A stretch of DNA of 30,218 nt from a virus: IMG/VR virus record IMGVR_UViG_3300038451_000007, positions 1-30,218 of that record. One strand, written 5' to 3'. How positions within the stretch are numbered: position 1 is the first letter of the stretch; the number at the start of each line of letters is the position of its first letter. A program made the translations under genes and the position numbers. Below the pieces are notes generated by a model. It ran no database searches, had not been told where the DNA came from, and saw nothing but the letters and a program-made list of their open reading frames with translations. This document shows, piece by piece, positions 3,719-24,495 of this stretch.

Positions 3719-3747
3719 ATTATATCACATTTCCCGCCGCTTGTCAA
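3719..3747 (-). promoter_or_regulatory. Sigma-70 promoter (leftward, early)
   Basis: Minus strand TTGACA (3747-3742), 17-base spacer ending in GTGA, TATAAT (3724-3719). The -35 box begins two bases after the stop codon of the lipoprotein gene. It would transcribe the 63-aa gene and probably the genes beyond. Confidence 0.8.
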
Positions 3748-3920: not shown

Positions 3921-5420
3921 TTATCCTCCTATCCTCTTTGGTGGGGTAGGTATACTTTTCTCAAAACTCACCGCCTCTAAGAACCATTTAGGGCATAAGT
4001 GCTTGAATCGGTTATATAACCACAGGAAACTATCATCTACGATAAGTGTTTCGCATCTATCGCCCGGCGCTCTGCATCCCCTACCGCTTGCCTGTACAAG
4101 CTCCTGCCACGCCAGATAGAAGGGAAGCTCGGGGTCAAGCTCGCATCGCTTCTGCATAATCTTGCTCGTCATGTTAGGGAATGGCACCTTGGCGATAATC
4201 TGATACTCACACTCGGAAAAGGGGAAATCATACCCGGTTGCAACTGATGGACTTATAAGTAACGCTGGCGGCTTACTACGTTTAAACTTATGTATCATGC
4301 CAACGATACTTTTAGCGTTACTATGCGATATGAAAACATTACTTATATCAATATTATCTATTATATGCTTTGCCCTATCGTAACTTACACTGTGTAGTAT
4401 GCCTTTCCTATCCATGCGCTGCTGGATAATCTGCCGGATGCGTAAGTACCAAGTGCCCAGCGCCTCTTCTGGCATACCGTATTTCAGGCTTACGGTAGGT
4501 ATATGATAAATTCGCCGGTTGGATGCTGGAAATGGCGAGCGATATTCAATACAATGTGGCCGCAAACCAAGTAAATGAGCAGTCTTAGGCATAATGGTAG
4601 CCGATACCATGAATATATTCTTTGCTCCTTTGATAAGGTATTCATCGGTGAAGTCGGTAATATCTATCGGGTCTATGAGTATGCCACTATGATCTACTTC
4701 CTCCACCACTTCCACGCTCTTGAGCCGCCAAGCATCCTCAATACTCCTTATATATAATATTAGCTTCTTAGCTTTATCTATCGGAGTTTCTGTCGTAAGT
4801 TCCACCTTAAGTATGTCGTAAGTATTTCTAAGTCCCTCACTGTTCACTCCCATATATACTATCTCTTGCTCAAGCATCTTGCTTATCTCGACCACTGGTA
4901 TCTTGACGCTAAGGAAGTCGGATAAATGTTGGGGAGCATTATGTGACTCATCCATTACAATATTGTCAAATGGGCCGAGCGTATCTATACTATTATGTAA
5001 CCAGAACGCATAATTAGTTACAATAATGTTAGCTTTCCTTGCGTTACGTAGTGCATCATAGTAGGGGCAACCCCAACTCTTTAGACTACAATCCACGCCG
5101 AAGTTACACATACCATCTTCGGCGGTGAGGCCGTGGTTGATGCTGCAACGATAATTAGACTTGCCCCTTATTTCGGCTATACCCATGTTAGGGAAGTCGC
5201 CCATAATCTGATCAGCAAGTCCCTTAGTACTTGTAAGTATAACTGACCGGCCTCCACGCTTGAGTGTGCCAGAGATATACATTAGTGTCTTGCCCACGCC
5301 GGTAGGCACATTCTGTAATAGGCAAGGGCCAGGGAAGTCCACGAAGTCTTGTATGGCCCTACCCTGGCCTGGACGTAGCTTTTTGAACTTAGATGGGACT
5401 TCTACCACATCATCCTCCAT
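3921..5420 (-). CDS. DinG/XPD-like superfamily 2 helicase with Fe-S cysteines
   Basis: Protein of 499 residues from ATG 5420 (MEDDVVEV); a TTG 14 codons upstream is possible but lies deep in the preceding gene. Walker A is PTGVGKT (39-45), and motif II is DESH (157-160). Between them are four cysteines at 92, 105, 111 and 118, the spacing expected for the 4Fe-4S domain of the XPD/DinG helicase family. Helicase domain 2 shows MVSATI (motif III-like), ISPSVATGYDFP (motif V-like) and QASGRGCR (motif VI). These enzymes unwind DNA 5' to 3'. A role in phage replication or recombination is inferred. It overlaps the 41-aa membrane gene upstream and is followed closely by the lipoprotein gene. Confidence 0.88.
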   Translation of the reverse strand: MEDDVVEVPSKFKKLRPGQGRAIQDFVDFPGPCLLQNVPTGVGKTLMYISGTLKRGGRSVILTSTKGLADQIMGDFPNMGIAEIRGKSNYRCSINHGLTAEDGMCNFGVDCSLKSWGCPYYDALRNARKANIIVTNYAFWLHNSIDTLGPFDNIVMDESHNAPQHLSDFLSVKIPVVEISKMLEQEIVYMGVNSEGLRNTYDILKVELTTETPIDKAKKLILYIRSIEDAWRLKSVEVVEEVDHSGILIDPIDITDFTDEYLIKGAKNIFMVSATIMPKTAHLLGLRPHCIEYRSPFPASNRRIYHIPTVSLKYGMPEEALGTWYLRIRQIIQQRMDRKGILHSVSYDRAKHIIDNIDISNVFISHSNAKSIVGMIHKFKRSKPPALLISPSVATGYDFPFSECEYQIIAKVPFPNMTSKIMQKRCELDPELPFYLAWQELVQASGRGCRAPGDRCETLIVDDSFLWLYNRFKHLCPKWFLEAVSFEKSIPTPPKRIGG

Positions 5421-5527
5421 TTGATTATACCTATAACAAGGTATATAATCCCCATGATACAAAGCAGATTAGCCGGGACAGCCTGCGCCCAGAATATAGA
5501 GGCTATGGCAAACAAAAATATTGACAT
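5402..5527 (-). CDS. Small membrane protein (41 aa)
   Basis: ORF of 41 residues starting MSIFLFAIASIFWAQAV at the ATG behind AAGGTG. It has two short hydrophobic segments (about 2-17 and 21-36) and ends in KWRMMW, suggesting a helical hairpin in the membrane. It overlaps the end of the upstream 84-aa membrane gene by 26 bases, and the helicase start overlaps its own 3' end. Function unknown. Confidence 0.55.
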   Translation of the reverse strand: MSIFLFAIASIFWAQAVPANLLCIMGIIYLVIGIIKWRMMW

Positions 5528-5757
5528 TCTTTCACCTTCCTTTTTATCCAAGGCCAGATAACGTCCTGAAGGAAACCTATAAACAGTAGAAGGACTATCC
5601 AAGCTGATGCATAAAGTGCCGCACCAGCTATACCGACAAGTATCCAGAGCGGATGCTCAGGCCAGCCCCCTCCGGCCATGTAGACAACAAAAAGTATGCC
5701 CGCCAAGAGAACTATGATGCGTGCCAAGTAAACTATGATGCGTTCTATGAGCGTCAT
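5503..5757 (-). CDS. Membrane protein (84 aa)
   Basis: Product of 84 residues with ribosome site AAAGGAGG five bases before ATG. Hydrophobic segments at about 7-27 (IIVYLARIIVLLAGILFVVY) and 36-64 (PLWILVGIAGAALYASAWIVLL and following) give two or three membrane helices, followed by a short basic cytoplasmic tail (IKRKVKECQYFCLP). It is the first gene behind promoter 5792-5820. No family is recognised; holin-like size and topology are noted, but there is no endolysin next to it, so that name is not supported. Confidence 0.65.
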   Translation of the reverse strand: MTLIERIIVYLARIIVLLAGILFVVYMAGGGWPEHPLWILVGIAGAALYASAWIVLLLFIGFLQDVIWPWIKRKVKECQYFCLP

Positions 5758-5791: not shown

Positions 5792-5820
5792 ATTATATCA
5801 TATTTCAAAGCGTTTGTCAA
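5792..5820 (-). promoter_or_regulatory. Sigma-70 promoter with G-rich transcript start
   Basis: Minus strand TTGACA (5820-5815), 17-base spacer ending in GAAATATGA, TATAAT (5797-5792). After exactly seven bases comes GGGCGGGCGGGATGG (5784-5770), then AAAGGAGG and the ATG of the 84-aa membrane gene. The spacer is nearly identical to that of the rightward promoter at 10596-10624. Confidence 0.9.
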
Positions 5821-5829
5821 GCATTATTT

Positions 5830-5997
5830 TCACTCGATGCGGTTTTTTTCTTCTTCCACGTAATCCTCATCAAACTCAGGCTCGATAATCTCGTAGGTAT
5901 CCTCATCGAGATTATTCACGAGTACCTGGAACTCAGGCTCGAAGTTAGTACGGACTTCGACTTCACCATCCTCAATGGTAATGACTATCGTGGGCAT
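5830..5997 (-). CDS. Small highly acidic protein ending in Glu (55 aa)
   Basis: Start ATG at 5997 is set by AAGGAGG upstream. The 55-residue product has 19 Asp/Glu and only 3 Lys/Arg. Its first half looks beta-structured (MPTIVITIEDGEVEVRT), the second half is a run of acidic residues (YEIIEPEFDEDYVEEE), and the last residues are KNRIE, so the C-terminal residue is Glu. It is the last gene of the amidoligase cassette and overlaps the preceding gene by 13 bases. Family unknown. Small acidic proteins with a C-terminal Glu (Pup, LysW-type amino-group carriers) are known substrates of amide-forming ligases, so a carrier or substrate role is a hypothesis. It could equally be a DNA-mimic inhibitor. 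Confidence 0.65.
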   Translation of the reverse strand: MPTIVITIEDGEVEVRTNFEPEFQVLVNNLDEDTYEIIEPEFDEDYVEEEKNRIE

Positions 5998-6209
5998 GAA
6001 CCTTCCTCCTTGCATAGTGCTTCATACGCCTCTTGGCTTAGGTCACTGGACGTATCAATCTCGCCCCGTAGATATGAGTCAAGTTCTTTAACAAGCTCCC
6101 CTACCTCATAAGTATCACCGAGATCGGTTTCCTTTTCCATAGCTTCGAGGTAGAGTAAGTTATACTTAATTTCCTCAAGCAACGAGAGTGGTACTTTAAG
6201 CATCTTCAT
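5985..6209 (-). CDS. Small acidic helical protein (74 aa)
   Basis: Start ATG at 6209 follows AAGGGGG by six bases. The 74-residue product begins MKMLKVPLSLLEEIKY and is rich in Leu, Glu and Lys with heptad-like spacing (VGELVKELDSYL), so it is probably helical. It has two cysteines near the C-terminus (C66, C72). It lies between the Cys-rich gene (one base apart) and the acidic 55-aa gene (13-base overlap). No family recognised. Confidence 0.6.
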   Translation of the reverse strand: MKMLKVPLSLLEEIKYNLLYLEAMEKETDLGDTYEVGELVKELDSYLRGEIDTSSDLSQEAYEALCKEEGSCPR

Positions 6210-6210
6210 C

Positions 6211-6384
6211 TTATACCCCCTTAATAACAAGATTATGCGTATTAACAAACTTAGTATGCTTCAAATAGCGTAATGAATACCACTCCATCCACGGTATGCA
6301 ATCACAGAAGCGGATGATAGTATTGTCCATCACCCCATACTGCAACCTGCGCCCGCAGATCAGACAATGGTTACATATCGTCAT
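6211..6384 (-). CDS. Small Cys-rich (zinc-ribbon-like) protein (57 aa)
   Basis: Starting at ATG 6384 the product has 57 residues, beginning MTICNHCLICGRRLQYG. The cysteines at 4, 7, 10, 27 and 29 fit a small zinc ribbon with an aromatic C-terminal part (PWMEWYSLRY). The start overlaps the end of the amidotransferase gene by 14 bases; a second ATG one codon upstream is an equal choice. An AGGAGG lies 15-18 bases upstream within the previous gene. Its place between the amidotransferase and the acidic proteins suggests that it works in the same system. Confidence 0.55.
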   Translation of the reverse strand: MTICNHCLICGRRLQYGVMDNTIIRFCDCIPWMEWYSLRYLKHTKFVNTHNLVIKGV

Positions 6385-7321
6385 CATAATCAAAGACCTG
6401 CCCTCCTTTAATCTCGCATTTATATACAAGTCCCGTACCACGATAAGTAATGGATAGGTCGTTACATTTGCGGCAGCTATCGTGACGCTGGCAAGTCGGG
6501 TGAATAAGCAAGTCGTGATACTTGCTCTCATCGCTGTATGGGGTCTTGAGAACGCTTACTTTGGGCTTAACTACTTGGACAGCCTTGGTAGTATTATCCA
6601 CAACGGTCTTATCCCCGATCTTATCCCAAGCCTTTTGCCAATCTTCCTCATTCTCCTTAGTCCAATACGAGTTATAGTGAGTGGTGCTATACCTTCCCAC
6701 TTGCCTTGCTACATAACACTGTTTCCACTTGTAGCCGCTATTGGAGTAGAGCACACCCTTATCCTCTACCCAGTCAGTACCCAGGCGATATACACCCTCA
6801 AGTCCCATTATAAGTATCTTGCTGCCGGTAGTGGCCTTATTAAGTAACGTGATTACAGCCTCATTGGCAAGATTATTCTTAATGAGATCATGGCCTAACA
6901 CGTCCCTTATGAAGCACTGAGTATCGCTCAACGAATCAGCCATATCGCTAAATCCGCTAAGGATACCATTATGCGCCATGCCGTAAGTATTTCTCCACTT
7001 ACGAGTGGTAAGTTGTTCCTCATCGGTAGATAGGGGGAAAGGATGACAGTTAGCAGGATTAACATCGCCGTGAGTGCCAAAGCGAAAGTGAAGTACCATA
7101 TCCGGCGCAGTCGGTAATATCTCACTCAGGACATGGCTGTAAAAGCCACGCTGGTGTAATGCGCTAATGAGTGCATTAAGGGTCATGTAACCCTTGCGCC
7201 CTATAATGGCTTTATCTTCGGGGAACATAAATCCCGCTCCGTCCGCATTATTAGAGAAACAGTTAGTGAGATACTCAAGGCTAACTGTTTTACCTTTTGG
7301 CCTGTGGATTACGATGCACAT
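6371..7321 (-). CDS. Class II glutamine amidotransferase (Ntn hydrolase)
   Basis: Protein of 316 residues preceded by AGGAGGTAATA. After Met removal the N-terminal residue would be Cys2 (MCIVIHRP), the nucleophile of class II amidotransferases. Other family landmarks follow: NNADGAGFMF (24-33), HFRFGTHGDVN (78-88, the HxRxxTHG-type glutamine-binding segment), NCHPF (91-95), MAHNGI (115-120) and SDTQ (132-135). The enzyme hydrolyses glutamine to supply ammonia. Here it has no synthetase domain of its own, and the amidoligase gene lies 12 bases upstream, so the two probably work together. The C-terminal region (after about 270) has further cysteines (TCQRHDSCRKC), a possible metal-binding tail. 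Confidence 0.88.
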   Translation of the reverse strand: MCIVIHRPKGKTVSLEYLTNCFSNNADGAGFMFPEDKAIIGRKGYMTLNALISALHQRGFYSHVLSEILPTAPDMVLHFRFGTHGDVNPANCHPFPLSTDEEQLTTRKWRNTYGMAHNGILSGFSDMADSLSDTQCFIRDVLGHDLIKNNLANEAVITLLNKATTGSKILIMGLEGVYRLGTDWVEDKGVLYSNSGYKWKQCYVARQVGRYSTTHYNSYWTKENEEDWQKAWDKIGDKTVVDNTTKAVQVVKPKVSVLKTPYSDESKYHDLLIHPTCQRHDSCRKCNDLSITYRGTGLVYKCEIKGGQVFDYDDDM

Positions 7322-7333
7322 TATTACCTCCTG

Positions 7334-8719
7334 CTAAAAAGGTTCTTGCAAGTCAGATTGCTGCGGTATCGGCACCCAATGTAGTGCTGCATTCAAGATA
7401 CCCTTTTTATCCAGGTAAGTCTTGAGTGCATCAAGCGGCTTGCATGATGGCTGATTCTGAAGCCATATTGTAAAAATCGTCCACGGGTGCTGCACACAAC
7501 TTTCGTTAATCTCCACTTTCTTTAAGAACTCGACAATGTAATGGCAGAACGATACATAGCAAAGGAAAGTAACGACCCGCAACGTTCCTTTGAACACTCG
7601 AAACTCTATTGTATGTCTATTCTCAAAGTTTATACATTGGTATCGTGCTTGCTTATGGCGATCACGGAAAACCAAATCCTTAGCATGTTTCTTAGTTATC
7701 ACACCTTTAACAAAGCCAAACGACGCATAAGCTAACTCATTTCGTTGAGCTACTTTTTCTATTTGCTCTTGACACTGGCGGAAGAAGAAAAGCAACGATG
7801 AAGTCAAGTCGCTATCAATATCGCCATTCTCCCGGTGAACATGAATACCACAGGTATCCGTATTAAATGACTTACCGCCGCCAACTTGCACCGCCCCAAC
7901 GACTCTGGATAACAGCTTGAGAGTATCACCTTCAAACCAACTGTCAATAGAGCGGGGATGGAATACTATCTCTAACCCATTATGCAGGCTTCCGTCTGAT
8001 TTGGAGAAGAAGTGATCTTCGTCCGCATCTAATTCCACAAGCGCCTTGAGTCCGGCACCACGATCACGATAGACGTCCGTCTCAAGCTCCACGCCATAGT
8101 AAGGACTTCTGCCGTAGTGCTGCCAATCGGGGCGATAATCGTGCCGATGTAAGTGACCAGAGCCACAAGGGCAGTCTTCTACATCCTCACGATAGATAGT
8201 CCTGCCACAGTTACTACACTCGGTAAATGCCTCATGCCAGCAAGACTGGCAATAAACCTCCCCGTCATCCTCAGGATACCGCTCCTCCCTTGGGGCAATT
8301 ACTTCACCACAGCTACAGCATGTGTGGATGCACTCGTAGCAGGTAGACGGGCTATCCCAAGCCAAGTCATCACAATGAACGTATTCGCCGCAACTATGAC
8401 ACCTTCTTACTTTAGGCCTGCATTTGTAACAGATACTACCGCTCCAATAGTTAAAGCTAAGTTTGTGCTCACCGCATATCCGGCAAGTGAATATTGAACA
8501 ATCAGAGAAGTCGGTAGGGAATTTGCAGTAGCCCTCTACGTTAGTATAGCGTTTTCCATCAGCAGCATAAAGGCAAACACCCAGCCATCGGTGCGGCATG
8601 CTCGGGTATGTCAAAGAAGGCTCTCTCCAGTCAGCATCAAGACCACCCTCCTCTATCACCAATACAGCGGGCAAGTATTGAATACCAGCACCGAATTGAT
8701 TCAATCCCCATACTAACAT
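7334..8719 (-). CDS. Amidoligase (Amidoligase_2, COOH-NH2 ligase fold) with zinc-ribbon N-terminus
   Basis: Protein of 461 residues preceded by AGGAGGATAGT. The C-terminal half carries the amidoligase landmarks: YYGVELETD (207-215), SKSDGSL (239-245), GLEIVFHP (248-255), CGIHVH (290-295), and HTIEFRVFKGTL (369-380). These correspond to the metal- and ATP-binding acidic and His residues of the family, which shares the glutamine-synthetase/GCS fold and forms amide bonds using ATP. Residues 74-185 contain about 20 cysteines, mostly as CxxC pairs (79/82, 97/100, 107/110, 127/130, 157/160, 168/171), implying a series of zinc ribbons for protein or nucleic-acid binding. The substrate is unknown. 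First gene of the leftward cassette, behind promoter 8813-8841. Confidence 0.88.
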   Translation of the reverse strand: MLVWGLNQFGAGIQYLPAVLVIEEGGLDADWREPSLTYPSMPHRWLGVCLYAADGKRYTNVEGYCKFPTDFSDCSIFTCRICGEHKLSFNYWSGSICYKCRPKVRRCHSCGEYVHCDDLAWDSPSTCYECIHTCCSCGEVIAPREERYPEDDGEVYCQSCWHEAFTECSNCGRTIYREDVEDCPCGSGHLHRHDYRPDWQHYGRSPYYGVELETDVYRDRGAGLKALVELDADEDHFFSKSDGSLHNGLEIVFHPRSIDSWFEGDTLKLLSRVVGAVQVGGGKSFNTDTCGIHVHRENGDIDSDLTSSLLFFFRQCQEQIEKVAQRNELAYASFGFVKGVITKKHAKDLVFRDRHKQARYQCINFENRHTIEFRVFKGTLRVVTFLCYVSFCHYIVEFLKKVEINESCVQHPWTIFTIWLQNQPSCKPLDALKTYLDKKGILNAALHWVPIPQQSDLQEPF

Positions 8720-8812: not shown

Positions 8813-8841
8813 ATTATATCACGTTTCGCTTGCATTGTCAA
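8813..8841 (-). promoter_or_regulatory. Sigma-70 promoter for the amidoligase cassette
   Basis: Minus strand TTGACA (8841-8836), 17-base spacer ending in ACGTGA, TATAAT (8818-8813). The transcript would start near 8806, leaving about 90 bases before the amidoligase ATG. The G-tract seen after three sister promoters is absent here. Confidence 0.85.
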
Positions 8842-8852
8842 GCCCTCCGTTT

Positions 8853-8890
8853 GCCCTACCATCCGCCCTACCATCCTTGCCCTACCATCC
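8853..8890. repeat. Triplicated 12-base motif upstream of the leftward promoter
   Basis: GCCCTACCATCC occurs at 8853-8864, 8865-8876 and 8879-8890, ending 12 bases upstream of the -35 box. The 12- and 14-base spacing is not a full helical turn. It may be an activator or initiator-protein site, or simple slippage. Confidence 0.6.
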
Positions 8891-9011: not shown

Positions 9012-9051
9012 GTGTAAAAAATCTTTACAAAATGTAAAGAAACCCGACACC
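9012..9051. promoter_or_regulatory. Nested-dyad operator candidate, copy 1
   Basis: A 40-base element with inner dyad TCTTTACA-AAA-TGTAAAGA and outer GTGT/ACAC, each outer arm six bases from the inner dyad. It is 39/40 identical to copy 2. Placement between divergent operons suggests binding of a dimeric or tetrameric regulator, or of an initiator protein. Confidence 0.65.
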
Positions 9052-9134: not shown

Positions 9135-9174
9135 GTGTAAAAAATCTTTACAAAATGTAAAGAAACCTGACACC
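9135..9174. promoter_or_regulatory. Nested-dyad operator candidate, copy 2
   Basis: Same 40-base element as 9012-9051 in the same orientation, start to start 123 bases apart. Here the outer arm is 5 bases (GGTGT/ACACC, with one G at 9134 added to the repeat). It ends immediately before a weak rightward -35 candidate. Confidence 0.65.
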
Positions 9175-10374: not shown

Positions 10375-10403
10375 TTGACAAACGTCGAAAAATATGATAT
10401 AAT
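10375..10403 (+). promoter_or_regulatory. Sigma-70 promoter with G-rich transcript start
   Basis: TTGACA (10375-10380), 17-base spacer ending in AATATGA, TATAAT (10398-10403). Exactly seven bases later comes GGGTGGGCGGGTGG (10411-10424). It is upstream of the 28-aa ORF. Confidence 0.9.
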
Positions 10404-10595: not shown

Positions 10596-10624
10596 TTGAC
10601 AAACGGTTTGAAATATGATATAAT
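10596..10624 (+). promoter_or_regulatory. Sigma-70 promoter for the rightward operon at 10671
   Basis: TTGACA (10596-10601), 17-base spacer ending in GAAATATGA, TATAAT (10619-10624). CAAAC-G-GTTTG forms a small dyad overlapping the -35 box. The start site would be near 10631, 40 bases before the metallopeptidase ATG. Confidence 0.9.
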
Positions 10625-11475: not shown

Positions 11476-11797
11476 ATGTGGTGGTAACTATAGCCTTCTC
11501 TGTATAAGATGTAGAAGGGCCAGTATTCGGGAGAGCGTTGAGTTCCTCACCGATAAACATGGCCTTGAGCTTGAGACGCTAATCAAAGCTCTCGCAGCCG
11601 GAGTTCGTGGTGAAATGCCACAAGGCGCTGCGGGTTATTTGTTCAAAGCTCTACAACTTAAGGATGCTTTTCCCTCTACTAAAGCCGAGATTACCGGCGC
11701 TGAGGGAGGGCCACTGGAGATAGCCGATGCCAAATCCCGCCTCACCGATCTCGTGGCTCGCCTCACTACCCGAATCGCAGAGAGAGAGGATAATTAA
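11459..11797 (+). CDS. Candidate small terminase subunit with N-terminal Zn ribbon (112 aa)
   Basis: GGAG lies five bases before the ATG. The 112-residue product begins MPVCPKCGGNY and CIRCRR, giving two CxxC pairs (4/7, 15/18). A helical middle (LETLIKALAAGVRG, AAGYLFKALQLKD) follows, and the C-terminal helix is SRLTDLVARLTTRIAERE. Position directly before the large terminase, size and helix-rich body suggest the DNA-recognition subunit of the packaging motor, though the zinc ribbon is unusual for that role and no sequence signature confirms it. The neighbouring HTH protein is an alternative TerS. Confidence 0.5.
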   Translation: MPVCPKCGGNYSLLCIRCRRASIRESVEFLTDKHGLELETLIKALAAGVRGEMPQGAAGYLFKALQLKDAFPSTKAEITGAEGGPLEIADAKSRLTDLVARLTTRIAEREDN

Positions 11798-12467
11798 TGA
11801 CCTCAATCCCGGCGACTTCCGAGCGGTGCTTACGAGCTTGGAAGAGATATATAAAAAAGACCCGTATCTATGGTACACATCCGAGATGTTTACCGTTGAC
11901 GAGGCATCACAACAAAAGTTACCTTTTCCTGACAAGGCTTACTTAGACGATATTATTAGTGCCCTGCGCACTACTCAAAAGTTATGTATCCCCAAGTCCC
12001 GGCGTATGTTAATGTCGTGGACGATGGCGGGCTGGGCCACTTACAATGCCAGATTCTTCCCTAACCACGCCATCTTCATTCAATCTGAGACTGAGAACAA
12101 GGCGGCGTACATAACAGATAAGAGATGTAAGTATATAGAAGAGAACTTGCGGGAGCCGCTTCTACGTAAGCCCTTCAAGACAATTCGCACCAATGAGGGT
12201 TTAGTAGGGCGCATCGTCTACAATGATACTGGCTCTTATATATGGGCGGTCCCTCAAGGCGCAGATGTAATAAGGACATATACCTTTAGTATCTTAATTC
12301 TTGATGAATCAGAATTTCAAGCGGAGGGTGAGGCGGCTTTAAGTGCATCACTTTCCATTGTCGAAGAGGGAAAGTCTAATCAAATCATTCTGTTATCCTC
12401 ATCGAATGGTCCTGTTGGCCCATTAGCCAGCATTTGCCGTGGCGCTGGATTTGATAAGTTCAGCTAA
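11727..12467 (+). CDS. terL: Terminase large subunit, ATPase part (split gene)
   Basis: Product of 246 residues; GGAG seven bases upstream supports ATG 11727, which gives a 71-base overlap with the preceding gene. It contains the packaging ATPase core: the TVDEASQQKLPFPDKAYL lead-in, the variant Walker A KSRRMLMSW (90-98), FIQSETENKAAY (117-128), Walker B ILILDESE (189-196, catalytic E194 after D193), and motif III LLSSS (222-226). The ORF stops at the linker where a whole TerL would continue into the nuclease domain, which is encoded by the next gene with a TAATG overlap. The motor powers DNA translocation into the prohead. Confidence 0.85.
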   Translation: MPNPASPISWLASLPESQRERIINDLNPGDFRAVLTSLEEIYKKDPYLWYTSEMFTVDEASQQKLPFPDKAYLDDIISALRTTQKLCIPKSRRMLMSWTMAGWATYNARFFPNHAIFIQSETENKAAYITDKRCKYIEENLREPLLRKPFKTIRTNEGLVGRIVYNDTGSYIWAVPQGADVIRTYTFSILILDESEFQAEGEAALSASLSIVEEGKSNQIILLSSSNGPVGPLASICRGAGFDKFS

Positions 12468-13321
12468 TGAAAGTACTAAATCCCATTCAATCTCCACGAG
12501 GCTTCGTTATCTTACCTGTTCATTACTCCCATGACCCTGAAAAAGACTCGGCTTGGGTGACACAAGAACAGTTAAAATACATGAAGGAATATGGAGATTG
12601 GGAGAAGGAGTGGCAGCTTGAAGAGGAAATAAACTTTCAGACGGTTCCTGGAGCGCTGGCTTATCCGGCGTTTTCATCGGTGAATATCGGAAGAACAATA
12701 TACAACAAGAGCCTACCCTTATGCTTGGACTGCGACTTTAATGTAGAGCCGATGGTTTGGGAGGTCAGTCAGCAGGTTGGCGATATTATTTGTTTCATTG
12801 ATGAGATCAAGATAAGCCCAGCGCAAATCAAAGATATGGTTACGGAGTTCCGCAACCGTTATCCAGCCCATCCGGGCGAGCTATGGATATATGGAGACGC
12901 TACAGGAAATAAGCGCACGAGTCAAACTGCTACATCGGACTACGATCTTATTAGGCTGTATTTTAGAGGGTATCCCTCCCCACGAGTGTTTAAAATCTCG
13001 TCCGTTAATCCAGCAGTTAAAGATAGAATTAATGCAGTTAATCTCAGACTACGGGCAGTTGATGGTCAACCCGGAGTACTTATTGACGAAAGCAAGTGCC
13101 CCGAACTCATCCGAGACTTCAAAGAAGTAGCGATCAAGGATGCGAAGATCGTCAAGACAAGTAAGAAAGAAGACCCTTACTTCTGGCGCACTCACGCCTC
13201 CGACGCTGCGGGCTACCACATCTTTCGTGAGTTCCCCGTCGTAAGTCAAGTATACGAACATGCCCGTAAGAAACGCAAGCCCCTCAAATATAAAAGACTC
13301 TTAGGAGTTTCGGGTTTATGA
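12467..13321 (+). CDS. terL: Terminase large subunit, nuclease part (split gene)
   Basis: Product of 284 residues; ATG 12467 overlaps the stop of the ATPase gene (TAATG). It has the RNase H-like TerL nuclease: LDCDFNVEP (87-95, first catalytic Asp), a strand with FIDEI (110-114), LWIYGDATG (139-147, third acidic residue), and a C-terminal THASDAAGYHIF segment with the last Asp. It begins RGFVILPVHYSHDPEKD, a segment that in single-chain terminases follows the ATPase motif III region, so little or nothing is lost at the split. It cuts concatemeric DNA during packaging. Whether the two products form a complex or arise from a recent mutation is unknown. Confidence 0.85.
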   Translation: MKVLNPIQSPRGFVILPVHYSHDPEKDSAWVTQEQLKYMKEYGDWEKEWQLEEEINFQTVPGALAYPAFSSVNIGRTIYNKSLPLCLDCDFNVEPMVWEVSQQVGDIICFIDEIKISPAQIKDMVTEFRNRYPAHPGELWIYGDATGNKRTSQTATSDYDLIRLYFRGYPSPRVFKISSVNPAVKDRINAVNLRLRAVDGQPGVLIDESKCPELIRDFKEVAIKDAKIVKTSKKEDPYFWRTHASDAAGYHIFREFPVVSQVYEHARKKRKPLKYKRLLGVSGL

Positions 13322-24466: not shown

Positions 24467-24495
24467 ATTATATCATATTCTCGGGCATTTGTCAA
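24467..24495 (-). promoter_or_regulatory. Early-type promoter antisense to the adaptor gene
   Basis: Minus strand TTGACA (24495-24490), 17-base spacer ending in GAATATGA, TATAAT (24472-24467), then after seven bases GGGACGGCGGGGGTGGG (24459-24443) and AAGGA. It lies in the 95-base gap between two late genes and points left into the adaptor-like gene. No convincing minus-strand gene follows. Confidence 0.8.

Follow-up and report, generated by a model that had tools for sequence, protein, structure and literature searches.

A stretch of viral DNA of 30,218 bases (IMG/VR record IMGVR_UViG_3300038451_000007, called the window below) carries capsid, portal and terminase genes and, on its minus strand, a gene for a predicted amidoligase followed by a gene for a predicted class II glutamine amidotransferase (GATase). 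An earlier note on this DNA had placed these two and three small genes, all leftward, between two promoters. A check of the open reading frames (ORFs) in the window confirmed all five genes with their coordinates, and both promoters were exact matches to the sigma-70 consensus. The features are as follows.

8813-8841, minus strand, perfect extended -10 sigma-70 promoter of the amidoligase unit (exact TTGACA-N17-TATAAT plus extended -10 TG)
7334-8719, minus strand, amidoligase, 461 aa with 28 Cys
6371-7321, minus strand, GATase, 316 aa, first residues MC
6211-6387, minus strand, small Cys-rich protein, 58 aa if started at the ATG at 6387 or 57 aa if started at the second ATG, basic with a pI of 9.0
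5985-6209, minus strand, small acidic protein, 74 aa, pI 4.3
5830-5997, minus strand, small acidic protein, pI 4.05, 55 aa or, if started at an upstream ATG, 61 aa
5792-5820, minus strand, perfect extended -10 sigma-70 promoter of the next leftward unit (exact TTGACA-N17-TATAAT plus extended -10 TG)

The five-gene unit begins behind the promoter at 8841-8813 and stops just short of the one at 5820-5792, and a Shine-Dalgarno-like sequence precedes every one of the five starts. The intergenic gaps were 12, -17, +1 and -13 nt in order from the amidoligase to the 55-aa gene, so that two of the four junctions overlap and the other two are gaps of 12 and 1 nt.

The 461-aa protein was identified as a predicted Amidoligase_2 (PF12224) enzyme with a fold like those of glutamine synthetase and gamma-glutamylcysteine synthetase (GS/GCS-like) and an intact active site. 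Its score with the PF12224 profile was 27.4 bits, above the curated cut-off of 22. The predicted structure had a mean predicted local distance difference test score (pLDDT) of 78 with residues 1-67 unreliable, and comprised Cys-rich zinc-ribbon/LIM-like modules at about residues 75-190 in its N-terminal part, followed on the C-terminal side by the GS/GCS-like catalytic domain at 204-442. The solved fold closest to the model of residues 204-442 was YbdK (Z 12.6, root-mean-square deviation (rmsd) 3.7, 220 residues), and plant glutamate-cysteine ligase (Z 11.7), Dop/PafA (Z 10-11) and glutamine synthetases were also matched. A profile of the catalytic domain aligned collinearly with YbdK in the PDB at GIELE, GxHVH and TxExR, with weak scores. 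Both the catalytic motifs GxExE, HxH and TxExR and the GS-type fold were present in the window protein; metal and ATP sites of the glutamine-synthetase type have such ExE, His and ExR elements.

Invariant residues of both enzymes were read from alignments of 60-70 homologues. G209, E211, E213, D242, E250, H293, R326, N364, E372 and R374 were unvarying among 64-69 amidoligase homologues, which include the two glutamates (E211/E213) that the note had named as catalytic. At least two CxxC motifs were found N-terminal to the catalytic domain in 63 of 80 representative ligases, and the zinc-ribbon/LIM-like N-terminus suggests binding to a macromolecule.

The 316-aa protein was in turn predicted to be a stand-alone class II (N-terminal nucleophile (Ntn), N-terminal Cys) glutamine amidotransferase/glutaminase with an intact active site. 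Its Ntn domain (about residues 2-200) was modelled at high confidence, followed by a C-terminal extension with a Cys cluster at low confidence. The model matched the GlmS glutaminase (Z 13.8, 169 residues, rmsd 3.4) and EgtC of ergothioneine synthesis (Z 13.6), in agreement with the assignment made in the note, whose proposed catalytic Cys2 was invariant together with M1, R80, T83, N118, G119 and D133. Cys2, Arg80, Thr83, Asn118, Gly119 and Asp133 correspond to the nucleophile, the glutamine-binding residues and the oxyanion site known from class II enzymes. The GATase_4 family (PF13230), which takes in EgtC-like gamma-glutamyl hydrolases, was matched at an E-value of 0.01 or below by 35 of 62 GATase homologues, the best at 7e-10.

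The conserved unit is the two-gene pair, with near-obligate adjacency and fixed order. A total of 240 loci were sampled, 80 viral ones through the ligase, 80 viral ones through the glutaminase and 80 bacterial ones. The GATase lay downstream in 79 of the 80 viral loci seeded by the ligase, the ligase lay upstream in 78 of the 80 seeded by the glutaminase, and the pair was present in 72 of the 80 bacterial loci. The ligase came first without exception wherever the pair occurred, and the gap between the genes was 210 bp or less in 220/240 loci, mostly -10 to +36 nt in the viral ones. Eleven loci lacked the partner; seven of them have a contig end no more than about 0.4 kb away, an explanation that does not apply to the other four (L035, L166, L241 and L252). 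The ligases formed 82 clusters at 60% identity, so the conservation does not come from one phage sampled repeatedly. Pairwise distances of ligase and glutaminase co-varied (r 0.50, against a permutation maximum of 0.17), with the shared genome history left in this value. Both enzyme assignments of the note and the functional pairing that it supposed were supported, and the two enzymes occurred together almost without exception, not separately in related phages.

At least 500 relatives were confirmed in one viral scan, and the phages carrying the pair have actinobacteria, proteobacteria and clostridia as hosts. Viral-contig scans using either enzyme as a single protein gave no match, and alignment-based searches were needed; GATase partners adjoining phage amidoligases were recovered by tblastn. 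In plasmid searches the GATase matched mainly GlmS/PurF paralogues, and the matches of the amidoligase were a few amidoligases from mycobacteria and C. difficile. Two amidoligase genes lie close together at L012, L025, L072, L140, L187, L230 and L245, where one GATase sometimes serves both. A scan of the neighbours for a universal third partner found none, with gamma-glutamyl cyclotransferase (GGCT) and ATP-grasp genes in a minority of loci only. In two phage kin found through the portal protein (L172 with 47% and L174 with 37% identity) neither enzyme was seen. With the completeness of both records uncertain, it is only suggested that the lineage of the phage has lost or gained the pair.

The three small genes look real and peculiar to this phage, and are not demonstrable cassette members. 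Family and homologue searches were empty for the Cys-rich protein, whose gene overlaps the 3' end of the GATase gene with a Shine-Dalgarno-like AAAGGAGGG about 13 nt upstream of its start, and for the 55-aa acidic protein. The 74-aa acidic protein is likewise an orphan, with one weak match to phrog_6501 (E 0.0036). About 230 further loci with the pair, and the phage collection, held no homologue of any of the three, a viral-contig search with two of them found no homologue, and no consistent small gene stood alongside the pair at other loci. The note had regarded the three as partners in the cassette and called for a search for the whole block; because none of them has a homologue anywhere searched, conservation extends to the two-gene pair and not to the block of five. 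The small proteins were also considered as a Pup-like tag and rejected, as they end in NRIE and SCPR, are without a Gly-Gly-Glu/Gln C-terminus and are not conserved with the pair.

A small ORF with at least two CxxC motifs within 0.7 kb after the GATase was found in 18/80 families, mostly from one lineage bearing WhiB, and is not homologous to that of the window. In this lineage with WhiB-like genes (L014, L023, L028, L036, L043, L051, L056, L065, L077 and L086) the GATase is directly followed by a roughly 50-aa Cys-rich protein, a counterpart of the Cys-rich gene of the window in position, not in homology.

The pair also exists in clostridial chromosomes (loci L175-L254, 72 of them bearing the pair), in the same order as in the window. 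DUF960 (PF06124) was encoded upstream of the pair in 43/72 loci, and 46/72 had a serine recombinase gene (PF00239) no more than 1.5 kb downstream, with a tyrosine integrase in 9/72; neither DUF960 nor the serine recombinase was matched in the window. Several cassette copies exist per genome and are up to 96% identical. In one genome, L207 (4586-7671) and L225 (4593-7575) have in common only 3.1 kb out of 11 kb, a segment that spans the cassette, and the segment common to L215 and L228 is 2.5 kb long. Since same-genome copies share only about 2.5-3.1 kb, these sequences give strong evidence that the compact DUF960-amidoligase-GATase-recombinase cassette is a mobile unit. The flanks of ten sampled clostridial loci were mostly ordinary chromosomal genes, and a literature search found no paper naming DUF960 together with amidoligase. 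Two Ruminococcus loci (L186 1040-7928 and L196 1-7921) are 98% identical upstream, but identity falls to only 80% over the cassette, which sits at one and the same site in both; this looks like an in-place exchange of the cassette.

Among phages, the amidoligase and GATase pair is already known from phiEco32, LUZ24, Marvin and MEP401/402, so the combination was known in outline as the note had said. A study of Iyer et al. from 2009 is said to be the reference for the peptidoglycan modification cassette of phiEco32, LUZ24, RIO-1 and relatives. In Marvin-like mycobacteriophages (gp105/gp106 in Marvin) and in the Methylophilales phages MEP401/402 the two families adjoin with the ligase first and no ATP-grasp gene in the regions examined, as in the window, but the ligases have about 19-27% identity to that of the window and the small neighbours are others. 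In LUZ24 and phiEco32 the homologous amidoligase and GATase also adjoin among replication genes, and the homology of the window enzymes to those of phiEco32, LUZ24 and RIO-1 was supported by profile scores of 25-43 bits. The cassettes of these three phages are larger and also encode COOH-NH2 ligase, ATP-grasp/RimK-like and GGCT enzymes, and their amidoligases are without the zinc ribbons that the window ligase carries. The window thus holds a reduced, two-enzyme form of a known phage cassette.

GGCT recurs beside the pair in several lineages, and in phage C75C1 (L009 4001-4897) a class II GATase is fused to a GGCT domain, with the annotation naming only gamma-glutamyl cyclotransferase. The recurrence gives the best hint obtained here that the bonds concerned are gamma-glutamyl amides. 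A similar combination exists in ergothioneine synthesis, where a GCS-type ligase, EgtA, goes together with EgtC, which stands alone as a class II Ntn enzyme and takes off a gamma-glutamyl group; the fold of EgtC is among those closest to the window GATase, whereas ergothioneine genes were not recognised in the window. Cassettes of the phiEco32, LUZ24 and RIO-1 type were proposed to modify peptidoglycan against superinfection (PMC5498523; see also PMC10580990, PMC11318856), with a further source in PMC3890496.

In the surroundings of the cassette, two genes lie in the unit leftward of the promoter at 5792-5820.

5503-5757, membrane protein
3921-5462, DinG/Rad3-like helicase

Ten promoter matches with two or fewer mismatches were found in the window against 2.65 expected, and 6/10 were perfect, at 3719-3747(-), 5792-5820(-), 8813-8841(-), 10375-10403(+), 10596-10624(+) and 24467-24495(-). 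A longer consensus, TTGACAAACGNNNNGAAATATGATATAAT, is common to most of these six, and the one at 24467-24495 is oriented leftward within the rightward late region. A 14-mer like TTGCCCTACCATCC is present in three tandem copies at 8851-8890, immediately upstream of the cassette promoter. Two direct repeats of 40 bp (9012-9051 and 9135-9174), 98% identical and without further copies in the window, lie between the divergent units upstream of the same promoter; both hold the near-palindrome CTTTACAAAATGTAAAG and are likely operator or replication-origin sites. The large terminase subunit is split over consecutive ORFs (11727-12467 and 12467-13321). The ORF pair looks alike in L172 (4076-4849 and 4884-5738), the relative with the 47%-identical portal, so the split appears conserved and not a sequencing error. 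Searches of the window for RNA families and tRNAs found none.

The function that we favour, at a probability of roughly 45%, is a two-enzyme module for ATP-dependent formation of a gamma-glutamyl-type amide and cleavage of a gamma-glutamyl or glutamine amide, most likely on a peptidoglycan precursor. The pair would be expressed from its own early-type promoter and would act early on a host macromolecule. The amidoligase would activate a carboxyl, most likely a gamma-glutamyl one, with ATP and join it to an amine, while its zinc-ribbon part may hold a macromolecule, either as a partner or as the substrate. The Ntn enzyme would split glutamine or a gamma-glutamyl amide, and could either supply ammonia to the ligase, by which the carboxyl would be amidated, or trim and edit the product of the ligase as EgtC does after EgtA; both enzymes would work on the same target. 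We infer the direction of the reactions and the coupling of the enzymes, and the identity of the target is a guess from context and literature. A cytoplasmic peptidoglycan precursor is the first choice because it is common to the bacterial hosts seen, is rich in gamma-Glu and free carboxyls and was proposed before, and its alteration would shield an infected cell, or the host of a prophage, against lytic enzymes or competing phages. This precursor, or another macromolecule, fits better than DNA as the target.

Several points weigh against this reading. The GATase of the window scored 17.8 bits with PF13230, under the cut-off of 23. No ORF of the window, a record that may be incomplete, matched the COOH-NH2 ligase, ATP-grasp enzyme or GGCT on which the peptidoglycan proposal for phiEco32/RIO-1 was based. 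The neighbours of the pair in the window are replication and other early genes, with no wall genes among them, and the published accounts of the pair that were consulted demonstrate neither a substrate nor altered peptidoglycan in infected cells. The pair is also found in chromosomal mobile cassettes outside recognisable phages, so superinfection exclusion by lytic phages could not be the whole story.

Protein tagging, metabolic supply and nucleic-acid or defence roles rank behind the peptidoglycan precursor. PafA and Dop with Pup are the model for tagging in which a ligase adds and a partner removes, and the presence of both among the GS-fold matches agrees with the view that the ligase tags host or phage proteins selected by its zinc ribbons and that the Ntn enzyme removes or processes the tag. 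The N-terminus of this kind in most representatives (63/80) and the two small acidic proteins encoded in the unit, as possible tag or target, speak for the same view. But these proteins do not travel with the pair and lack a Pup-like C-terminus, and no small gene is consistently beside the pair elsewhere, so a protein or peptide target is unlikely. An essential role of all three small proteins in one five-gene functional unit is more improbable still: one promoter, near-zero spacing and translational overlap are in its favour, yet unrelated small genes are common in phage operons and neither the other loci with the pair nor the searched collections yielded homologues.

The pair is borne by phages and, several times per genome, by chromosomal cassettes linked to recombinases. 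These carriers, and the position of the phage copies among early replication genes, would suit a conflict module of mobile DNA that modifies a nucleic acid, a nucleotide or a defence component, in phage counter-defence or in chromosomal defence and competition. The PADLOC defence library gave one weak and partial match only, and no recurring DNA-modification partner genes adjoin the pair, which makes such a module rather doubtful. A related gene set was proposed as nitrogen-metabolism genes (PMC10945688), and the pair would then channel glutamate and ammonia towards gamma-glutamyl compounds or amino acids as auxiliary genes of nitrogen or thiol metabolism feeding the infection. The growth effect in the source paper was, however, that of the whole phage, with the link to the genes called speculation there, and zinc ribbons and a wide spread on small mobile cassettes are ill-suited to a bulk metabolic enzyme. 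Such a metabolic supply is very unlikely.

The pair is real, well conserved, abundant and ordinary as a kind. In a broader and tentative view, somewhat doubtful as yet, it could travel as cargo in a general module of mobile DNA for conflict or for the cell surface, and could gamma-glutamylate or amidate one conserved host target. The phage of the window would then carry the minimal form, of two enzymes, with a zinc-ribbon part for specificity. If this is true, the cargo module would move in phages of very different hosts and also as recombinase-linked cassettes of about 2.5-3.1 kb in multiple copies in the chromosomes of Clostridia. With two genes sufficient and their constant residues and parts defined, the pair would offer a small system for finding the substrate directly.

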